Origin: Nocardia farcinica
GTDB taxonomy: Bacteria > Actinomycetota > Actinomycetes > Mycobacteriales > Mycobacteriaceae
NCBI RefSeq assembly: GCF_001182745.1
Contig: NZ_LN868938.1
Span: forward strand, 1,426,001-1,490,000
Length of the DNA stretch: 64,000 nt
Reading direction: 5' to 3'
In this document: piece after piece, positions 4,600-43,333 of the stretch
Layout of the letters: each line of letters starts with the position of its first letter
Numbering within the stretch: the stretch's first letter is position 1
Position numbers and translations under genes: made by a program
Notes under the pieces: generated by a model
Seen by the model: the letters and a program-made list of their open reading frames with translations, nothing else
Told to the model about the DNA's origin: nothing
Database searches by the model: none

Positions 4600-5012
4600 T
4601 CCAGCAGACCGGCGGCGTGCAGGTCGTCGAACAGCAGTTGATCCACCGGCGGTACCCGCGGGCGGTCGGCGTACCCGAACCAGGCCAGCTCGTCGATCTC
4701 GCTGCTGGCGGCGAGGGTGCCGCGGTATTCGGCGGTGTAGCAGGCCATCCGGACGAGCACGTCGTCGCCCGGTGCGTGCGCGCCCGCTTCGTAGACGCCC
4801 ACCGCCGCGACGGTCCCTGCGATCAGCGCGACGGTCAGTTCCTCGCGGATCTCCCGCAGCAACGTGTCCAGATCCGATTCGGCGCCTTCGCGTTTCCCGC
4901 CGGGAATGAAGAAGACGTCCTTGCCGCGCGGACGCGCGCACAGGATGCGTCCCCGCACGATGTGCACCCACGCGACCGTATCGATGAGTGTCGTCACCGG
5001 GCCTTCCCTCAT
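4596..5012 (-). CDS. NUDIX hydrolase
   Basis: The 138-residue protein contains a complete Nudix box (GX5EX7REUXEEXGU form): GGKREGAESDLDTLLREIRE followed by EL. The Glu residues of REIREEL bind the catalytic metal. Family members cleave nucleoside diphosphates linked to another moiety; the substrate cannot be read from sequence. ATG 5012 is preceded by a GGGAAGG-like stretch inside the coding start. It is coupled by a 4-bp overlap to the membrane protein gene. Confidence 0.9.
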   Translation of the reverse strand: MREGPVTTLIDTVAWVHIVRGRILCARPRGKDVFFIPGGKREGAESDLDTLLREIREELTVALIAGTVAAVGVYEAGAHAPGDDVLVRMACYTAEYRGTLAASSEIDELAWFGYADRPRVPPVDQLLFDDLHAAGLLE

Positions 5013-5115
5013 CGCCGCAGCCTACCGGGTCGCGCCGTCCGAGGTCGGCCATGAGGCGACACGGTGGGTGCTGCCACGCGGGTACCCGGTGCGGGCTGCC
5101 GTCCCAGGGTGGGCT

Positions 5116-6222
5116 TCACACCCGCCGGACGCGCAACGCCGCCCGACCCGTCGCGGTCGCCACCCGGTCGAGCGCGGCGTCCAGGTGTTTCGGGAGCGGG
5201 GCGTCGTCGAACATCGACACGGCCACCTCGTCGTCGGCGAATTCCCAGGTGCCCGCGATACGTCCGCCGACGACGACCAGCGGCGCGATCCAGCCGGCCG
5301 TCCGGCTGACCTGCGCGCGGTGTGCCTTGGGCAGCAGTTCCGTGGCGGCGGTGCCGGGGCCGAGAACGTACTGGTCGAACGGGCCGAGCAGGTGGACCTC
5401 GGCGCTCGGTTCGGCCGCGGCGAGGTCGTCGGCGTGTTCGGCGAGCAGCGCGCCGGGCGTGCCGTCGACGTCCACGGTCACCAACGCCGCGCCCATGTCG
5501 GCGAACCAGGACCGCACCACGGTCTTGCGGTGGCTGGTGCGGGTGAGCCACGCGTCGAACGTCTCCGGTGTCGCCGGGCCGTAGGCGCCGAGGTAGGCCG
5601 CGATCGCCCGCGGCGCGGCCTCCTCGGGCGCGAGTGGGCCGGTCCAGCCGGGAACGGCGCGGCGGGGACTGGTGAACGTCACCCGGTTGCCCTCGGCCGG
5701 CCCGTGGCAGAGCACACCCTGCCAGGCCAGCGGTTTGAGCAGCGCGCCCCACCCGGAATTCAGCTCGGTACCGAGCCGGTGGAACCGCGCGTCGGCCAGT
5801 AACGCGTCCACCAGTTCGGCGCGGGTGAGCGCGGCGTCGGCGAGCACGTCCCCGACGGCCTCGGCCAAGGCCGCCACGTCCGCGGGCGAGGCGCCGAAGG
5901 CCTTCTGCCAGGACGGTTTCTCCCACGTGCGCGCGGCCGCGATGAGCGGCAGCACGGTCGCCGCGGTCGCGGGCGTCATCGCGTGCAGCGTGCCGCGCAT
6001 CGCCCAGGTCTTCACCAGCGTCCCCGCCGCCAGCGCCTGCGCGACCGCGCCCGTGCTCGGCTCCGCACTGCGCAACGCCACCGCCAACTCGGCCGAGGAG
6101 GCCACCTGCGCCTGCACCCCCACCAACCGCTCGGCCACCTCGACGGCCGACCGCGCGCCCGCCCCGGACACGAACTGCCTGCGCAGCCGCCAGGCGAACA
6201 CCTGCTCCCACGTGACCCGCAC
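5116..6222 (-). CDS. Winged helix DNA-binding domain protein (HTH_42 family)
   Basis: The 368-residue protein fits the HTH_42 (PF06224) family: an N-terminal RRQFVSGAGARSAVEVAERLVG region, the LVKTWAMRGTLHAM motif, EFxR-type winged-helix middle and a C-terminal IAPLVVVGGRIAGTWEF core. Relatives include the DNA-glycosylase-like YcaQ/AlkX group, but many actinobacterial members are uncharacterised. GTG/ATG choice: ATG 6222 begins the conserved sequence. It is divergent from the TetR gene at 6404. Confidence 0.82.
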   Translation of the reverse strand: MRVTWEQVFAWRLRRQFVSGAGARSAVEVAERLVGVQAQVASSAELAVALRSAEPSTGAVAQALAAGTLVKTWAMRGTLHAMTPATAATVLPLIAAARTWEKPSWQKAFGASPADVAALAEAVGDVLADAALTRAELVDALLADARFHRLGTELNSGWGALLKPLAWQGVLCHGPAEGNRVTFTSPRRAVPGWTGPLAPEEAAPRAIAAYLGAYGPATPETFDAWLTRTSHRKTVVRSWFADMGAALVTVDVDGTPGALLAEHADDLAAAEPSAEVHLLGPFDQYVLGPGTAATELLPKAHRAQVSRTAGWIAPLVVVGGRIAGTWEFADDEVAVSMFDDAPLPKHLDAALDRVATATGRAALRVRRV

Positions 6223-35620: not shown

Positions 35621-37207
35621 TCAGTTGTAGGAGCGGGTGACGCCGTCGAGCAGGCTCTCGAGAGTGTCGTAGGTGGGGGTGTCGACGACGTCGATGAGCT
35701 CGGCGGGGACCGGGGCGCGGTGTTCGGCGGCGACGGCGGCGAACTGGGCGGCGTCACGGGTGCGGAAGCCGTGTTCGGCGGCCAGGCGCTGGAGTTCGGG
35801 GTCGGTGGTGAGCAGGCGGCCGAGCCGGTCGCCCGGTTCGTCGAAGGGCACGACGGTGTGGGTCGACAGCACGGTCGGTGAGGGGTAGGCCAGCACCATG
35901 CCGGGCTGGATGCGGCCCTGGGCCAGCGCTTCGACGTACTGGGCTTCGTAGATGAGCACCAGCGGCGCGGGGCCCATGCCCGCGGTCAGGTATTCCTGGA
36001 AGGGGCCGGCACTGGAGTTCTCGGCGTAGCCCTGGCCGGTGAACAGACGGGTCAGCTGCGGCAGCACCCGCTGCTCGGCGTCGGAGCCCTGGACGACGGC
36101 GTTGTCGTTGGCGACGAACGCCGCGATCGCCAGGAACATCGCCGCCGAGTTGGAGGTGCGGGGGTCGGTGGTGGAGACCAGGATGTTCTTGCGCACGGGG
36201 TAGACGGTGTTGCCGGGCAGGTGCGTCCACTCGGTATTGCGTTGGACCAGTTCGAGATAGCGTGCCATGTCGACGGTGGGCTCCGGGCCGGGACGGAGGA
36301 CGCCCGCGCCGGTGAGCAGGTCGGCGATCGGGGCGAAGGTGGCGATCGCCATCGGGGAGGAGAACGGCGTGTACTTGGTCGCCACACCGCGGGCGCGCTG
36401 GATGCGTTCGGCGGCGGTGGCGCTGGAGGGGAAGGCGAAGCTGTAGCCGGACAGGTCCATGTCGGCGATCTGGCGGGACCCGGCGGGTTCGATCTCGGCG
36501 CGCAGGCCGTGCCGGGCCAGCGCGTCGATGACGCGCTGATCTTCGAAGAAGGACGCCTTCTCCGAGCCGACCGCGCCGCGCACCACGGTGAGGGCGGGTC
36601 CGCTGGCCGCGGCGGGCTCGGGCTCGGGCTGGCGGCCGAGCTGGGCGGCGACCACGACGGCCACCACGAGCAGCGCGCCGCCGGCCAGCGCCAGGGTGCG
36701 TCGGGACACGCGGCCCACGGTGGCGGCGTGCCGTGCCCCGCTCCCCCGGGACTCCGCATCCGCCGATATCGCTGGTGCGCGGTGGCCGGTGCGGTTGTGC
36801 GGCGTAGCGTGGTCCCGCCCAGCCGATTCCAGCCGGGTGCTCGGCTGCGCTGCCGCACCGGCGTCCGGTGCCGGAGAGGCGACCGGTGCCGGAGAGGCGA
36901 CCGGTGCCGGAGAGGCGACCGGTGCCGGAGAGGCGACCGGTGCCGGAGAGGCGACCGGTGCCGGAGAGGTGGCCGGCGTCGGAGTGGCGACCGGGCCGGC
37001 CCTGGCGGTCCGGTCCAGTTCGCGCCGGGCGATGCGTTCGACGAGGATCGGCACGAACTCGCGGACCGGGTTGCCGGTGAACCGCTCCCGGGCGTGGTCG
37101 ATGACGGTGCGCACCCGTTCGGGCGGATGGGTCTCGGTGTAGCTCTCGACCAGGCTGTCGGCCAATCGGCGCAGTGCCTGTTCTTCGCGGACGGTATCGA
37201 CAGCCAC
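35621..37207 (-). CDS. Membrane-anchored extracellular solute-binding protein with Pro/Ala repeat linker
   Basis: The 528-residue protein has three parts. Residues 1-65 are a helical cytosolic domain (ALRRLADSLVESY, ERFTGNPVREFVPILVERIARREL) seen at the N-terminus of many actinobacterial membrane proteins. Residues 70-170 are a low-complexity linker with repeated SPAPVA. A membrane helix (about 176-196) leads to a type-2 periplasmic-binding-like domain (VRGAVGSEKASFFEDQRVIDAL onwards), like those joined to VWA domains, but no VWA domain follows. GTG 37207 and 37210 are possible starts; 37207 is better spaced from GAGGGAG. Ligand unknown. Confidence 0.8.
   Translation of the reverse strand: MAVDTVREEQALRRLADSLVESYTETHPPERVRTVIDHARERFTGNPVREFVPILVERIARRELDRTARAGPVATPTPATSPAPVASPAPVASPAPVASPAPVASPAPVASPAPDAGAAAQPSTRLESAGRDHATPHNRTGHRAPAISADAESRGSGARHAATVGRVSRRTLALAGGALLVVAVVVAAQLGRQPEPEPAAASGPALTVVRGAVGSEKASFFEDQRVIDALARHGLRAEIEPAGSRQIADMDLSGYSFAFPSSATAAERIQRARGVATKYTPFSSPMAIATFAPIADLLTGAGVLRPGPEPTVDMARYLELVQRNTEWTHLPGNTVYPVRKNILVSTTDPRTSNSAAMFLAIAAFVANDNAVVQGSDAEQRVLPQLTRLFTGQGYAENSSAGPFQEYLTAGMGPAPLVLIYEAQYVEALAQGRIQPGMVLAYPSPTVLSTHTVVPFDEPGDRLGRLLTTDPELQRLAAEHGFRTRDAAQFAAVAAEHRAPVPAELIDVVDTPTYDTLESLLDGVTRSYN
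36867..36992 (-). repeat. 18-bp coding tandem repeat, seven copies
   Basis: The unit GGTGCCGGAGAGGCGACC occurs five times exactly from 36867 to 36956, followed by two diverged copies to 36992. On the coding strand each unit encodes Pro-Val-Ala-Ser-Pro-Ala. The exact identity at DNA level implies recent expansion or contraction of the linker. Confidence 0.9.
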
Positions 37208-37691
37208 CACACACTCCCTCGGACCACGTATCCACCGGCGCCGCGCGCCGCCACCACCTGAGTTGCGCGCCGAAACGATACCGGCAGCGCACGGGTCTCG
37301 GCAGCGGCCGCGGACCGGCGCCGAGGGGCCGCCTCGACCCGCAGCGAACACCTCCGCGCGGGTGTCCTGGCCGGTATCCGCGCAGGTCGGCGGGCATGCG
37401 GCGGCGGTCGCCTGGCTTCGGCGGCAACCGTGCCGCGCTGCCTGCTGTGCGGACGAGAGTTCACTCGGGCATCGGCCCCTCGATACCGGTTGTTCGCCGG
37501 TGCGACGCGCAGACCGACCGCGTTCGCCACGGGACCGTTCGCCACGGGACCGTTCGCCACGGGACCGTTCGCTGCGTGACCGTTCGCTGCGTGACCGTTC
37601 GCCACCGGACTGTCAGGTGCGGGACCGTCCGGTGTGTCTGCCGTCGCCGGACCGGCGCGCACCCGTGGCGGGCACGAGAGAACACCACCGC
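37208..37691. other. Intergenic region with a minisatellite
   Basis: The gap separates two minus-strand genes. Open frames run across it on both strands, but they are Arg/Pro-rich, lack similarity and owe their openness to GC content. Its main feature is the 15-bp repeat at 37526-37615. Confidence 0.5.
37526..37615. repeat. 15-bp tandem repeat (minisatellite), six copies
   Basis: Three exact copies of GCCACGGGACCGTTC (37526-37570) are followed by two copies of GCTGCGTGACCGTTC (37571-37600) and one degenerate copy (to 37615). The period is a multiple of three, so frames stay open, but no convincing gene uses it. Confidence 0.85.
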
Positions 37692-38254: not shown

Positions 38255-38827
38255 ATGGGTATCCAGAGCAGGCGGGAGCGGGAGCGCGCCGAGCGGCACC
38301 GCCTCATCGTCGACACCGCGCGCGAGTTGGCCGAAACCGAGGGCTGGGACGCGGTCACCGTCCGCAAGCTCGCCGACCGCATCGAATACAGCCAGCCCGT
38401 GCTCTACAGCCACTTCGCGGGCAAGCGCGCCATCGTCACCGCGGTGGCCCTCGACGGCATCGCCGAACTCGCCGAGGCACTACACCGGGCCCGCACCTCC
38501 GCACCCGACGCCCCCGCGGCCCTGGCCGCCGTGGCCCGCGCCTACACCGACTTCGCCGCATCCCACCCGGCCCTCTACGACGCCATGTTCTCCCAGCCCA
38601 CCGATCTCACCTTCGGCGAGGGTGCCCCCGAACCGTTGCGCGCGGCATTCGCCGAGCTGGTGGCCACCTTCGCTCCCTTCGCCGCCGCCACCGACGTGGA
38701 GACCCTCACCGAAACCGTCTGGAGCACCCTGCACGGCCTGGCGAGCCTGGAACGCGATGCCCGCCTGCGCCCGGGCCTGCGGGAACAACGCCTCGACATC
38801 CTCGAGCGCTGGCTGACGGGCGCCTGA
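38255..38827 (+). CDS. TetR family transcriptional regulator
   Basis: The 190-residue protein has a TetR HTH (RLIVDTARELAETEGWDAVTVRKLADRIEYSQPVLYSHFAGK, with recognition around SQPVLYSHF) and a TetR_C-type helical domain. It is divergent from the DUF1772 membrane protein gene with three repeated operator-like sites between them, so control of both genes is likely. Confidence 0.9.
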   Translation: MGIQSRRERERAERHRLIVDTARELAETEGWDAVTVRKLADRIEYSQPVLYSHFAGKRAIVTAVALDGIAELAEALHRARTSAPDAPAALAAVARAYTDFAASHPALYDAMFSQPTDLTFGEGAPEPLRAAFAELVATFAPFAAATDVETLTETVWSTLHGLASLERDARLRPGLREQRLDILERWLTGA

Positions 38828-38850: not shown

Positions 38851-39135
38851 TCAGATGAGCGGGTGGACCACCGCCACCACTCCGATCACCACGAGCAGCG
38901 CGAGATAGCCCAGCACGAGCCGGGTGTCGCGCAGCAGGCAGCGGCTGCGGCGCAGTCCGTGACGCCAGGCACGCCAGTAGCCGACGAAGGCCAGGGCGGC
39001 GAAGGCGATCAGGGCGAGCGGCCCGACCAGCCAGGTGAGCAGGGCGACGGTGGCGTAGACACAGAGGTTCAGCGGGTCGGGCGTGGCCTGTTTCGCGGTG
39101 GCCTCGGTGTAGTAGACCCCGGGGTTGTCGCTCAT
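38851..39135 (-). CDS. Small membrane protein, last gene of the radical SAM operon
   Basis: The 94-residue protein starts MSDNPGVYYTEATAKQ and has two or three hydrophobic helices (about 27-58 and 75-93) separated by a basic loop (RAWRHGLRRSRCLLRDTR). I do not recognise the family. ATG 39135 overlaps the stop of the radical SAM gene (ATGA), so it is co-translated and probably works with it at the membrane. Confidence 0.75.
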   Translation of the reverse strand: MSDNPGVYYTEATAKQATPDPLNLCVYATVALLTWLVGPLALIAFAALAFVGYWRAWRHGLRRSRCLLRDTRLVLGYLALLVVIGVVAVVHPLI

Positions 39136-40712
39136 GGTGTGGTCACCGGGAGCAGCGCGGCCCCGGCGGGGGCGGCGGCGGACAGGCGTTGGCGCGACAG
39201 GGCGGGCCAGGCCTGCACGGCACAGAAGGGCGCGCACTGGTCCTGTTCGGCGCGGGTGCCCACGTGCACACAGCACTGGGTGAGGCGTTCCTCGAGCATG
39301 GTGTCGATGTCCATGAAGGGTTTGACGGTGAGGCGGACGACCCGCTCACCCAACAGGGTCCGCAGGCGGGCCTTGCGGCCGGGCAGCGCCGAGGAGGCCA
39401 GCGTCAGCAGCGTGGACATGCCCAGATCGCAGTGCTGGCAGATGGTCTGCCAGACCCGCCCGATGTCGGGGTGCGACAGCGAGGACTGTTCCGAGAGCAG
39501 CCCGAGCAGGGATTCGCGCACCGCCAGGCGCAGATCGGCGGGGATGTCGCTGTCGGCGATGCGGTTGGCGACCAGGCCGAGGCGCTGTTTGAGGGTGTCG
39601 TGTCCGAGCAGAGCGGTCAGGGAGCGCCAGTCGCCCGCGTCGTCGCGCAGCAGGTAGCCGACCGAGCAGCAGTGCGGGTGCGAGCAGGGCAGTGCGGTCA
39701 GGTCGCGCCAGGTGACCAGGCCGTCGGTCTGCGGGCCGAGGCGGGCCAGCACACCGGTGTGGGTGAGCCGGTGCATCGGGTCGATGACGCCGCTGCGGCC
39801 GGAGCCGAACTGCGGTTGCAGGGAGACCCCGCCGACGAACGGGGTGTCCAGTGCGGTGCGCACGACCGCGCCGATCTCGTCGTCGTTGACCCCGAACGCG
39901 ACGGTCATCACCAGGGTGGTGAAGATGCCGTGACCGGAAAGACGGCGCAGCGCTTCGGCTTTGAGGGCGCGCAGATCCCCACCGCGGTGGTGGCGGGAGG
40001 CGGCGGCGCTGACCCCGTCGTATTGCAGGTAGACCTCCACGCGTTCGCGGTGCTCGGCCAGCAGCGCGACCAGCGACTCGTCGCGGGCGAGGCGCACGCC
40101 GTTGGTGTTGATCAGGATGCGGGTGATGGGGCGGGCGGTGAGTTCGGCCAGCAGGGTGGGCAGGTCGGGATGCAGGGTGGGTTCGCCGCCGCTGAGCATG
40201 AGCACATCGAGCCTGCCGTGTTCGCGGGCCAGCCGCTGGTCGACGTTGGCGAGCACGTCGGCGACGGCGACGACGCCGGCCAGCTCCGGGGTGGAGTCGG
40301 CGAAACAGGTGGGGCAGCGCAGATTGCAGCCCTCCACGATGTCGGCGAGCAGGATGCAGGTGTGCTGGGTCTGCATCTCCGGCAGTCCGCGCAGGTAGGC
40401 GGCGGGCACGGGGTCGAAATTGCCCGGCGTGTCGGGCAGGTGGGCCTTGGTCGGGGCGGTCCATTCCTCGAGGTAGGCCAGGATCTCGGGATGCTCGTCG
40501 TAGAGGGTGCGCACCATGCCGTGCTCGGGGCAGCCGCGTTCGAGGTAGACCCGCCCGTCGCGTTCGGCCAGCCAGCCCGAGCGGCGGGCGACCTCGGCGA
40601 GCGGGCGGTCGGGGTCCGCGCGGTGGCAGTGCGGGCAGAACGCGTTGACGTAGCGCAGGATCCGGTCACCGCGCAGGGGCATGCCGGTGCCGGTCGGTCG
40701 ACGGCTCATCAC
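39132..40712 (-). CDS. Radical SAM enzyme of the Tes/MJ0619 (tetraether lipid synthase-like) type
   Basis: The 526-residue protein has the radical SAM cluster motif CNLRCPTC (Cys129, 133, 136) and the SAM-binding GGEP (175-178). It also carries extra cysteines: CPHCH at 26-30, Cys61, Cys343/348/349, Cys425/428, Cys480/481 and Cys493/497. The N-terminal CPHCH domain and the C-terminal pattern KPFMD...ERLTQCC..H...D.CAPFC match the layout of archaeal Tes/MJ0619, which joins lipid alkyl chains by C-C bond formation. The substrate here is unknown. It is coupled by ATGA to the genes on both sides. Confidence 0.85.
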   Translation of the reverse strand: MMSRRPTGTGMPLRGDRILRYVNAFCPHCHRADPDRPLAEVARRSGWLAERDGRVYLERGCPEHGMVRTLYDEHPEILAYLEEWTAPTKAHLPDTPGNFDPVPAAYLRGLPEMQTQHTCILLADIVEGCNLRCPTCFADSTPELAGVVAVADVLANVDQRLAREHGRLDVLMLSGGEPTLHPDLPTLLAELTARPITRILINTNGVRLARDESLVALLAEHRERVEVYLQYDGVSAAASRHHRGGDLRALKAEALRRLSGHGIFTTLVMTVAFGVNDDEIGAVVRTALDTPFVGGVSLQPQFGSGRSGVIDPMHRLTHTGVLARLGPQTDGLVTWRDLTALPCSHPHCCSVGYLLRDDAGDWRSLTALLGHDTLKQRLGLVANRIADSDIPADLRLAVRESLLGLLSEQSSLSHPDIGRVWQTICQHCDLGMSTLLTLASSALPGRKARLRTLLGERVVRLTVKPFMDIDTMLEERLTQCCVHVGTRAEQDQCAPFCAVQAWPALSRQRLSAAAPAGAALLPVTTP

Positions 40713-41101
40713 GGTACTCCGTTCGAGGCGGGCCAGGTCAGGGCGGCATACAGGTCGGGGTTGACGCCGGTGCAGAGGCCGACGGTGCAGATGGTGACCA
40801 GGGCCCAGCCGATCATCAGCCCGAGACCGAGTCCCTTGGCGACGGCGTTGCGGGTCCGGATCAGCAGTCCCCCACCGACGAAGACGGTGAGCACCCCGGC
40901 GGCGGTGGCCACACCGAGGATGATCTCGCCGGTGGTCCCCGGCCGGTCGGAGACCAGCAGGAACACCATGAACCCGAGCACGGCGTTGGCGCAGATGTAG
41001 ACGAATGCGCCGAGCACCGCGAATCCGGCGACGGCCAGACCATTACCGGAGCCGGGCGGCGGCGGGCCGACGGGTGGTGGTGGGGGTGGGGGCTGGGTCA
41101 T
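40709..41101 (-). CDS. Pro-rich membrane protein in the radical SAM operon
   Basis: The 130-residue protein begins with a polyproline stretch (residues 4-16) and has three hydrophobic helices (about 22-50, 60-80, 90-112). I do not recognise a named family. ATG 41101 overlaps the Lgt-like stop and its own stop overlaps the radical SAM start, so it is translated together with both. Its place between two candidate lipid enzymes suggests an accessory membrane role. Confidence 0.75.
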   Translation of the reverse strand: MTQPPPPPPPVGPPPPGSGNGLAVAGFAVLGAFVYICANAVLGFMVFLLVSDRPGTTGEIILGVATAAGVLTVFVGGGLLIRTRNAVAKGLGLGLMIGWALVTICTVGLCTGVNPDLYAALTWPASNGVP

Positions 41102-41853
41102 GCCGCGACCTTTCGTCGGAGGACAGCGTCATAGGTGCCGCGCCGGTAGCCGAGGGTCAGCCGGACGGCGACCAGCACCAATCCGGGCAGCAGGAACCAC
41201 TGCGGGCGGGTCAGATCCAGCCACACGGTGTCGTTGGCGCGGGTGAATTCGACGAGGAACCGGAAGATCGCGTAGGCGCCGATGTAGAGGGTGAACAACT
41301 CCCCGGGCGCGGTGATGCGGGTGCGCGCCCACCGCAGCGCGGCGAACGCGGCCAGGTGGAAGGCGATCTCGTAGAGGAAGCTCGGATGCATGGCGGCACC
41401 GCTGGCGCAGCCCGGGCACTGCGGGACGGTACCGGGTGCGTGCACGCCCCACGGCAGGCCGGTGGGCCGCCCGGGTGCTTCGGTGAGATGGCAGCCGATG
41501 CGGCCGACCGCCATGCCGAGGGCCACGGCGGGGGCGAACAGATCACCGGTGCGCTCGCGGTAGCCGATGAGACGTTTGGCGACCAGCACGCCGAGGTAGG
41601 CGCCCAGCAGCCCGCCCAGCACACTGCGGGCGCCGAACAACCAGCTCTCGTAGGGGTCCAGCGTTTCGGCCAGGCTCGACAACCGCATACCGATCGCGCC
41701 GCCCACCAGCGCGCCGGTGACCGCGACCAGCGATTCCTCGCGCAGCGCGGCCCGGCGCCTGCATTCGAGCACGAACACCACCGCCGCCACCGCGACCCCG
41801 AGCGCCACGAAGAACCCGTGGGTGGGGATCCCCCCGATCAGCTGCGGCACCAT
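41098..41853 (-). CDS. Lgt-like (prolipoprotein diacylglyceryl transferase family) membrane protein
   Basis: The 251-residue polytopic protein fits the Lgt family: ARSVLGGLLGAYLGV (75-89), GRIGCHLTEAPGRPT (117-131), HPSFLYEIAFHL (156-167) and RFLVEFTR (198-205). Compared with E. coli Lgt it keeps the Arg143, Arg239 and Glu243 equivalents (Arg118, Arg198, Glu202). It lacks the His of the HGGLIG motif and has Cys121 where Asn146 would be. That pattern fits a paralogous family rather than the housekeeping Lgt. It is the first gene of a four-gene coupled operon with a Tes-like radical SAM enzyme. Confidence 0.85.
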   Translation of the reverse strand: MVPQLIGGIPTHGFFVALGVAVAAVVFVLECRRRAALREESLVAVTGALVGGAIGMRLSSLAETLDPYESWLFGARSVLGGLLGAYLGVLVAKRLIGYRERTGDLFAPAVALGMAVGRIGCHLTEAPGRPTGLPWGVHAPGTVPQCPGCASGAAMHPSFLYEIAFHLAAFAALRWARTRITAPGELFTLYIGAYAIFRFLVEFTRANDTVWLDLTRPQWFLLPGLVLVAVRLTLGYRRGTYDAVLRRKVAA

Positions 41854-41992: not shown

Positions 41993-42586
41993 TCAGCCGC
42001 GCGGCACCACGATCCGGTTCGCCCACACCGCGCGCGCCTCCGCGCGCCCGACCCCGGCCACGCCCAGCTCCGCCGCCCCGATCGCGAGCAACCCGGCCGC
42101 TGCGACGAATCCGAGCGCCATCGTCGACTCCAGCGGCCACAACAACACGACGATGCCGATCACCAGCGCCGCCACCCCGGCCAGCTCGAGACGCAACGGC
42201 TCGGACAGCTGCTCGTCCCACACCGCGACGGTGGCCTGGCTCACCCCGCGCATCGCCCACCCCAGCCCCAACCACATCGACAGTGTCGGTATCGAATTGC
42301 CGCCGCTGAGCGCCAGCACCGCCAGGATCACCGACAGCAGCCCGGACACCAACAGCAACGCCCGCAACGGCATCGCGAACCGCGCGCCGAACGCCAGGAA
42401 CACCTGCGCGCCCGCGCTCACGGCCAGGTACAACCCGAGGAGCAGTTCGAGGGTCGGCACGGTCTTGCCCGGCCACAGCGCCACCAGCACGCCCAGCGCC
42501 ACCGAGCAGATACCCAGCACGAGAATCGCTTCCCGGCCACCCCGGACTCGCGACGAAACCGGCTTTCCGCCATAGTTGTCCGACAT
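41993..42586 (-). CDS. HdeD/DUF308-like membrane protein
   Basis: The 197-residue protein has six hydrophobic helices in paired repeats, with the DUF308 rhythm GVLVALWPGKTVPTLELLLGLYLAVSA and ALVIGIVVLLWPLESTMALG. In E. coli HdeD is linked to acid resistance; actinobacterial members are uncharacterised. ATG 42586 (MSDNYGGKP) starts the hydrophilic N-terminal lead; the frame runs further upstream without similarity. It is divergent from the Imm5-like gene. Confidence 0.8.
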   Translation of the reverse strand: MSDNYGGKPVSSRVRGGREAILVLGICSVALGVLVALWPGKTVPTLELLLGLYLAVSAGAQVFLAFGARFAMPLRALLLVSGLLSVILAVLALSGGNSIPTLSMWLGLGWAMRGVSQATVAVWDEQLSEPLRLELAGVAALVIGIVVLLWPLESTMALGFVAAAGLLAIGAAELGVAGVGRAEARAVWANRIVVPRG

Positions 42587-42778
42587 AAGCCCATGATATG
42601 GGCGGGCGAACAAGCGGTTCGTCAGTGCCGGGAGTCGGGTTCGCAACGTCACCATGCCGCAAGGGTGCCCGCTGAGCCCGGATCGACACCGCCCATCGAG
42701 GGGGCTTGGCAGCCATCGCGCGCCGGGCGGCCCGGCGCCGAAGTCTCCACCGGGACTTCAACGATACTGTCGAGGCTC

Positions 42779-43333
42779 ATGACACCGAACGACCGGCACC
42801 CCGCCATCGACCTCACCCTCGACGAGGTGCGCGCGGTCACAGCGTTCGCGCTCGCCTGCGCCGAATCGGTGCTGCCGATCGCCGAGCGCGACTGCCCCGA
42901 CGACCCGCGCCCGCGCGCCGTCCTCGACCGCGCGCGTGCCTTCGTCACCGGTGGCCCACGCACGCAGGCGATCCGGGTGACCGCGCTCGCCGCGCACCGC
43001 GCCGCCCGAGAGGCCCGCGACCGGGGGATGGACGCCGCCGCGGAGGCGGCGCTGGCCGCCGGGCACACCGGCGGAGCCGCCTACCTGCATCCGCTGGCGA
43101 CCGCGACCCAGGGCGGACACATCCTCCTGTCGGCCGCGCACGCGGCGCGCGCCCGCGAACTCGACGCCGGAGACCCGACCGTCGCCGCCGACACCCTCGC
43201 CACGGCCCAGCGGCTGGCCGGCCCGGTGGTGCGGGCGGTGTTGCGGCGATATTCACCCGCACCGGCGCGGGGACGCGGACGGGTGGGTGAGTTGTGGCGC
43301 ACGCTCGACTCCGCCCTCCGCCAGACCGGGTGA
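42779..43333 (+). CDS. Imm5-like putative immunity protein
   Basis: The 184-residue all-helical protein resembles the Imm5-like family: DLTLDEVRAVTAFALACAESVLP, DDPRPRAVLDRARAF, RVTALAAHRAAREA and AGGAAYLHPLATATQGGHIL. Related proteins are named as immunity proteins of polymorphic toxin systems, mostly by genomic context. No toxin gene is adjacent. A TACTGT hexamer (42765-42770) eight bases before the ATG suggests an almost leaderless transcript. Confidence 0.75.
   Translation: MTPNDRHPAIDLTLDEVRAVTAFALACAESVLPIAERDCPDDPRPRAVLDRARAFVTGGPRTQAIRVTALAAHRAAREARDRGMDAAAEAALAAGHTGGAAYLHPLATATQGGHILLSAAHAARARELDAGDPTVAADTLATAQRLAGPVVRAVLRRYSPAPARGRGRVGELWRTLDSALRQTG

Follow-up and report, generated by a model that had tools for sequence, protein, structure and literature searches.

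An Lgt-like membrane protein and a radical SAM protein related to, yet distinct from, Tes share a conserved gene cassette in Nocardia farcinica and other actinobacteria

Two described enzymes stand closest to the proteins considered here. Prolipoprotein diacylglyceryl transferase (Lgt) has an active site that faces the periplasm (excerpt of PMC4728403) and in E. coli requires Y26, N146, R143, G154 and R239 (excerpt of PMC13251419); the latter excerpt also describes MSMEG_5408, a second Lgt of M. smegmatis carrying Y26H and N146C, as of presumed low Lgt activity. Tes (GDGT-MAS, MJ0619) is the archaeal tetraether lipid synthase, a radical S-adenosylmethionine (SAM) enzyme with the rubredoxin ligands C9, C12, C33 and H36, whose Met439 and Tyr459 variants are still active (excerpt of PMC9433317). 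Relatives of both are encoded side by side in a stretch of 64,000 nucleotides from Nocardia farcinica (contig NZ_LN868938.1, positions 1,426,001 to 1,490,000; hereafter the window), in a genome of 6.46 Mb and 5 contigs. Four minus-strand genes, each overlapping the adjoining one, form an operon at 38851-41853 of the window, in the order Lgt-like, MEM1, rSAM, MEM2:

41098..41853, minus strand: Lgt-like integral membrane protein, 251 amino acids, Pfam LGT match
40709..41101, minus strand: MEM1, 130 amino acids, with a Pro-rich N-terminus, three predicted membrane segments and a GxCT motif near the C-terminus
39132..40712, minus strand: radical SAM (rSAM) protein with an N-terminal zinc-ribbon/rubredoxin domain (PF23545 and PF04055)
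38851..39135, minus strand: MEM2, a small membrane protein of 94 amino acids with Cys25 and Cys66

An earlier reading of the window, made from its letters alone (the sequence-only reading), had described a coupled four-gene operon containing two small membrane proteins, with ATGA at all three junctions. The four overlapping genes, MEM1 and MEM2 among them, are present, but the junctions read ATGA, GTGATGA and ATGA in gene order; the description was slightly off at the middle one because the rSAM protein may start either at a GTG (526 amino acids, 4-base overlap) or at an ATG 3 bases further on (525 amino acids, 1-base overlap).

The four gene families belong together as a conserved module. When 296 whole genomes of the same class, the host's own included, were searched with the rSAM protein and an Lgt-like profile, rSAM orthologues were found in 17 (750-1199 bits; next-best match 198 bits) and Lgt-like orthologues also in 17 (317-477 bits; next 105 bits, the level of an ordinary Lgt). 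The genomes were the same 17 in both cases and the genes lay no more than about 0.8 kb apart in each, a coincidence with a chance of 1/C(296,17) = 5.5e-28 if shared ancestry is ignored. Failure of the genes to co-occur had been named beforehand as grounds for giving up the sequence-only reading; the Lgt-like and rSAM genes do co-occur. In the same 296 genomes the MEM2 profile (A4) gave 12 strong matches, every one within the 17 cassette genomes, and the MEM1 profile (A5) gave 13 strong matches within the 17 and a weak one adjoining the Lgt-like gene in G008, all 17 genomes carrying a strong match to MEM1, MEM2 or both. The MEM2 profile search found nothing in five of the 17 (G003, G149, G159, G215 and G231). 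A separate observation concerns G031, a genome of the same genus as the window, which holds a broken, two-piece MEM2 trace (L172:6844-7021) but, within the 14 kb around it, neither an Lgt-like nor an rSAM match; this genome seems to have lost the cassette.

Gene neighbourhoods were compared at named loci from a scan of GTDB representatives. Among the best 80 of 354 relatives, which came from Nocardia, Mycobacterium/Mycolicibacterium, Nonomuraea, Microbispora, Planomonospora and further taxa, the Lgt-like gene was found at 79, MEM1 at 79 and MEM2 at 54, bearing out the neighbourhood conservation expected across Nocardia and its relatives; the sole Lgt-like miss (L062) and the sole MEM1 miss (L083) were both located at a contig start, and most mycobacteria were without MEM2. 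Most loci had the gene order Lgt-like, MEM1, rSAM, but those of Nonomuraea and Thermoactinospora had MEM1, Lgt-like, rSAM, the set still being together. Clustering of rough gene calls yielded no further neighbour family common to the Nocardia, Mycobacterium and Streptosporangiaceae loci, and a larger conserved cluster spanning these genera was thereby ruled out. Pairwise distances of the Lgt-like protein and of MEM2 correlated with those of the rSAM protein (0.88 over 98 loci and 0.84 over 67 loci, respectively), as would be expected for a unit, shared ancestry also contributing. Alignment A2 was made without L120, and A3 without L066 and L074 (their references running into stops).

The cassette was also found on two true plasmids, pS2b of M. 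avium (344 kb, typed mobilizable) and pJCM12687 of M. branderi (864 kb). Both carry two MEM1-like genes, and on neither was MEM2 found beside the rSAM gene:

L170:7225-10545: cassette on M. avium pS2b
L171:7358-10551: cassette on M. branderi pJCM12687

A third "plasmid" match was set aside, being an 11.9 Mb Nonomuraea record. Beyond the class, the cassette occurred in 3 of 24 genomes of another class of the phylum, two contigs of which carried the Lgt-like, rSAM and MEM2 genes together, MEM1 not being found on them. Upstream of these other-class cassettes we observed a SorA-like molybdopterin oxidoreductase gene and a YgfZ-like gene, and downstream a DUF6855 gene (L175:8533-10080 and 4741-5148; likewise in L176). 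The nearest named rSAM relatives were from Nocardia; homologues were also named from Gemmatimonadetes, Herpetosiphonaceae and Acidimicrobiia (draft genomes) and from Chloroflexota, so the rSAM family is wider than Actinomycetes. Of the matches listed, at least 4,249 stood at E 1e-3 or better, a count that includes other rSAM groups, and at least 2,076 at E 1e-60 or better.

Judged by its sequence, the rSAM protein shares a superfamily with Tes, yet is not Tes. It matched PF23545 (HMPTM zinc ribbon) at 41.3 bits (cut-off 27) and PF04055 at 72.6 bits (cut-off 29.5), and its closest PDB sequence was Tes 7tol (E 2.8e-31), to which the C-terminal stretch also aligned, although not significantly when taken alone. 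Against the Tes equivalog NF045702 it scored only 145.5 bits, below the cut-off of 450. The best NCBIfam model, TrsS (NF045646), aligned over the core at 199.2 bits, likewise short of its cut-off of 490. In a tree of 48 rows from one search, for which the program warned of long branches meeting, the cassette rSAM proteins formed a branch of their own (100/100) and so did Tes (100/99). The earlier "Tes-like" description thus holds at the level of the superfamily, whereas identity with Tes is ruled out by score, ligand pattern and tree. The alignment rows were 18 of the 99 cassette proteins, 17 proteins from the 120 listed in the Tes search, and 13 bacterial relatives; conservation was also counted in 240 homologues, among the matches listed in two lists. 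The conserved sites lie as follows:

40626..40637, minus strand: C26xxC29, first half of the rubredoxin-like site (Tes 17/17, bacterial relatives 13/13, cassette 18/18, homologues 240/240)
40521..40532, minus strand: C61xxH64, second half of the rubredoxin-like site (Tes 17/17, relatives 13/13, cassette 18/18, homologues 240/240)
40305..40328, minus strand: CNLRCPTC, radical SAM cluster motif with C129, C133 and C136 (homologues 240/240)
39222..39275, minus strand: C480, C481, C493 and C497, C-terminal auxiliary cluster region

All the motifs named in the sequence-only reading (CNLRCPTC, CPHCH, FMD...ERLTQCC and CAPFC) are present in the protein. The CPHCH, however, had been taken for the N-terminal pattern of Tes and turned out to belong to the rubredoxin-like site, whose Tes ligand positions are kept in the cassette proteins, as is the radical SAM CX3CX2C (18/18 rows and 240/240 homologues for each). 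The protein lacks the other N-terminal site of Tes, the one that binds a [4Fe-4S] cluster: its ligands C73, C77, C80 and H83 were found in 17/17 Tes and 13/13 bacterial relatives but in 0/18 cassette rows, no cysteine stands between H64 and H117 in any of the 240 homologues, and H117 is close by yet outside the H83 column. The labile Met439 of Tes is replaced by Lys, and Tyr459 by Val, in 18/18 cassette rows. At the C-terminus, the Tes cysteines C338, C455 and C470 are kept in all rows of Tes, relatives and cassette (18/18), C480 and C497 of our protein occupying the C455 and C470 positions; the three are presumed to ligate the C-terminal cluster. C493 is specific to the cassette (240/240 homologues), and C343, C425, C428 and C481 are common to the cassette and the bacterial relatives in nearly all rows and mostly absent from archaeal Tes, so an additional metal site is possible. 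As for TrsS, the Tes-type N-terminal site is kept by most rows of the bacterial relatives group, whereas the cassette does not have it. Selenocysteine was considered and rejected, the in-frame stops in L120 and L015 being ordinary C-terminal stops. L020 and L025 are among the nearest actinobacterial relatives keeping the Tes N-terminal site and are the two loci whose neighbour was named: directly after the Tes/TrsS-like rSAM gene lies a DVU_1556/arsenite-methyltransferase-like gene (L020:3013-3819 and L025:2969-3757; 138-141 bits, best-model cut-off 155), the two possibly forming a separate conserved pair.

The Lgt-like protein matched Pfam LGT (PF01790) at 106.5 bits (cut-off 24.9) but scored 71.6 bits, below the cut-off of 118.9, with TIGR00544, the equivalog of the lipoprotein enzyme. 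A PDB sequence search gave no match at E 0.1. An ordinary Lgt is encoded elsewhere in the same genome (G000:C1:2254875-2255642, 220.9 bits). Positions R143, E151, G154, R239, E243 and R246 (E. coli numbering) are kept in 98/98 cassette proteins, and the same 98/98 carry Y26H and N146C; the loci include near relatives and such counts are not independent. The second of these changes lies here:

41491..41502, minus strand: R118...C121 of the Lgt-like protein, equivalent to E. coli R143...N146, with Asn replaced by Cys (R 98/98, C 98/98)

The aligned positions indicate that the phospholipid-binding arginines have been retained and that two residues needed for lipoprotein work are gone. In seven ordinary Lgts, the host's own included, Y26 was present in 7/7 and N146 in 7/7, the latter count being biased in that six of the seven were chosen by a motif containing N146. 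The protein is probably not the lipoprotein enzyme, as the sequence-only reading had proposed from the loss of the HGG His and the Asn. Both residues are absent as stated; the His argument, nevertheless, is uninformative and was dropped, because at the H103 (HGGL) position all seven of the ordinary Lgts compared carry W or F, the cassette proteins having L or I. Nor is N146C a mark exclusive to the cassette, given that L157 (G170), an Lgt-type protein outside any cassette match, also has Cys there; in L157 the loop after this Cys is longer. MSMEG_5408 shows the same Y26H and N146C pattern as the cassette proteins and may itself lie in a cassette.

Both small membrane proteins vary outside conserved cysteine regions. 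MEM1 had no Pfam or NCBIfam match; its GxCT cysteine was conserved in 91/91 sequences, one of 92 having been left out (more than 320 amino acids). This residue usually lies 9 residues before the stop, and 20 before it in the window's protein:

40772..40774, minus strand: Cys110 of MEM1, invariant (91/91) and placed where the last membrane segment ends

By the positive-inside rule applied to the basic loop, the last MEM1 segment probably runs outward, leaving Cys110 extracytoplasmic; the MEM1 thiol would therefore be on the side where Lgt works. Two MEM1 copies were present at 12 of 82 loci. In MEM2, Cys25 was found in 67/68 and Cys66 in 68/68 sequences, and one of the two, in a basic loop, is probably cytoplasmic.

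We favour, with a probability of roughly 50%, the interpretation that these genes constitute a dedicated membrane module for making or altering a membrane lipid or lipid anchor, inherited and lost as a unit and sometimes carried on plasmids. The case for a lipid comes from the Lgt-like partner and from the membrane context, and is in line with an rSAM protein that has its superfamily in common with the lipid-chain-coupling Tes and has retained the SAM cluster together with the rubredoxin-like site and the three C-terminal cluster cysteines. Starting from the observed partnership, residue patterns and distribution, the following substrates, order of steps and product can be proposed. Working on the membrane's outer face, the Lgt-like protein would transfer the diacylglyceryl group of phosphatidylglycerol to a non-lipobox acceptor, plausibly the MEM1 cysteine. 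Acting from the cytoplasmic side, where MEM2 would probably hold it at the membrane, the rSAM protein would use the 5'-deoxyadenosyl radical to abstract a hydrogen from an inert carbon, located either in the lipid chain or in the anchored product, and its C-terminal cluster would handle the radical. A bolder version, to which we give little credit, has a rewired Lgt with active-site Cys and His load diacylglyceryl onto the C-terminal MEM1 cysteine at the membrane edge, after which the Tes-superfamily enzyme, equipped with other iron-sulfur sites than Tes, would couple or functionalise the chains, giving a radical-built and possibly membrane-spanning protein-bound lipid.

Several observations weigh against a lipid module. 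The actinobacteria concerned are not known for membrane-spanning lipids. In the rSAM protein the N-terminal cluster of Tes is missing and Met439 and Tyr459 are replaced, and its closer bacterial relatives L020 and L025 adjoin the arsenite-methyltransferase-like gene and not lipid genes, for which reason family membership alone is no proof of lipids. The Cys at the N146 position recurs in the non-cassette L157. The MEM1 profile search found nothing in three of the 17 cassette genomes (G010, G034 and G148), so MEM1 cannot be the sole acceptor everywhere, and outside the cassette genomes it gave ten weak matches (22-39 bits) and one strong match (G259, 95 bits, with an internal stop).

Modification of a protein is, among the alternatives, the one we take most seriously, although we still regard it as unlikely: the rSAM protein would crosslink or otherwise modify the conserved cysteine region of one of the small membrane proteins (MEM1 or MEM2), whether or not the Lgt-like protein also adds a lipid, in a manner resembling peptide maturation. 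The invariance of Cys110 in MEM1 and Cys66 in MEM2 within otherwise variable small proteins would suit such a role, as would the usual position of the MEM1 cysteine near the end and the loci with two MEM1 copies; however, no SPASM-type family or maturase family of ribosomally synthesised and post-translationally modified peptides reached its cut-off among the best 25 of 46 NCBIfam matches, and either of the two small proteins may be absent. Somewhat less probable is the chemistry originally suggested from sequence, in which the rSAM protein, like Tes, joins the ends of two fatty chains into membrane-spanning lipids. Tes is the closest solved sequence, C338, C455 and C470 are all kept, and bacterial Tes homologues have been proposed as makers of membrane-spanning lipids (excerpt of PMC8941075), but according to the excerpt of PMC11868695 no experiment has yet tied bacterial Tes homologues to such lipids. 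The low score with the Tes model and the separate clade also speak against it, as does the loss of the N-terminal cluster, Met439 and Tyr459, even if the activity of the Met439 and Tyr459 variants of Tes softens this last point.

We are more doubtful still that the rSAM protein acts on a small molecule (a pterin, a metalloid or another compound) which the Lgt-like protein then anchors to lipid. Some members of the superfamily are named for pterin methylation, and the sub-threshold methyltransferase-like neighbour of L020 and L025 points the same way; yet the cassette has no conserved companion gene for a methyltransferase or for small-molecule chemistry, and the constant partners are membrane proteins. 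Finally, the Pfam LGT match and the precedent of MSMEG_5408, with its two replacements and presumed low activity, could be reconciled with an ordinary spare lipoprotein Lgt lying by chance beside an unrelated rSAM gene. This we consider very improbable in view of the perfect co-occurrence over 296 genomes and the loss of both Y26 and N146 in 98 of 98 cassette proteins.

No paper on the Lgt-like/rSAM pairing was found in a literature search whose scope left out most subscription journals. The cassette links an uncharacterised rSAM family to an unvarying genetic partner, and so places it in a biochemical setting open to test; it may also account for second Lgt copies that carry Y26H and N146C, MSMEG_5408 being one. 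The comparison also advises caution, in that bacterial "Tes homologue" calls can include enzymes without the Tes N-terminal cluster. The pairing, in many soil bacteria, of an altered lipid-attaching enzyme with an uncharacterised radical enzyme suggests a route, not yet described, by which membrane lipids or lipid anchors are built or altered; if the lipid interpretation is true, a radical route would be added to the lipid chemistry of aerobic actinobacteria.

As regards the surroundings of the operon, a DUF308 membrane protein is encoded on the same strand 140 bases upstream (41993-42655), followed further upstream by an Imm5-like putative immunity protein (42758-43333), and downstream a TetR-type regulator (38255-38827) faces the operon. 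A search of the window for RNA elements and tRNAs found none. The minus-strand open reading frame at 35621-37351 had no match in a Pfam search; near or within it lie tandem repeats of 18 and 15 bases, at 36860-36999 and 37521-37628.

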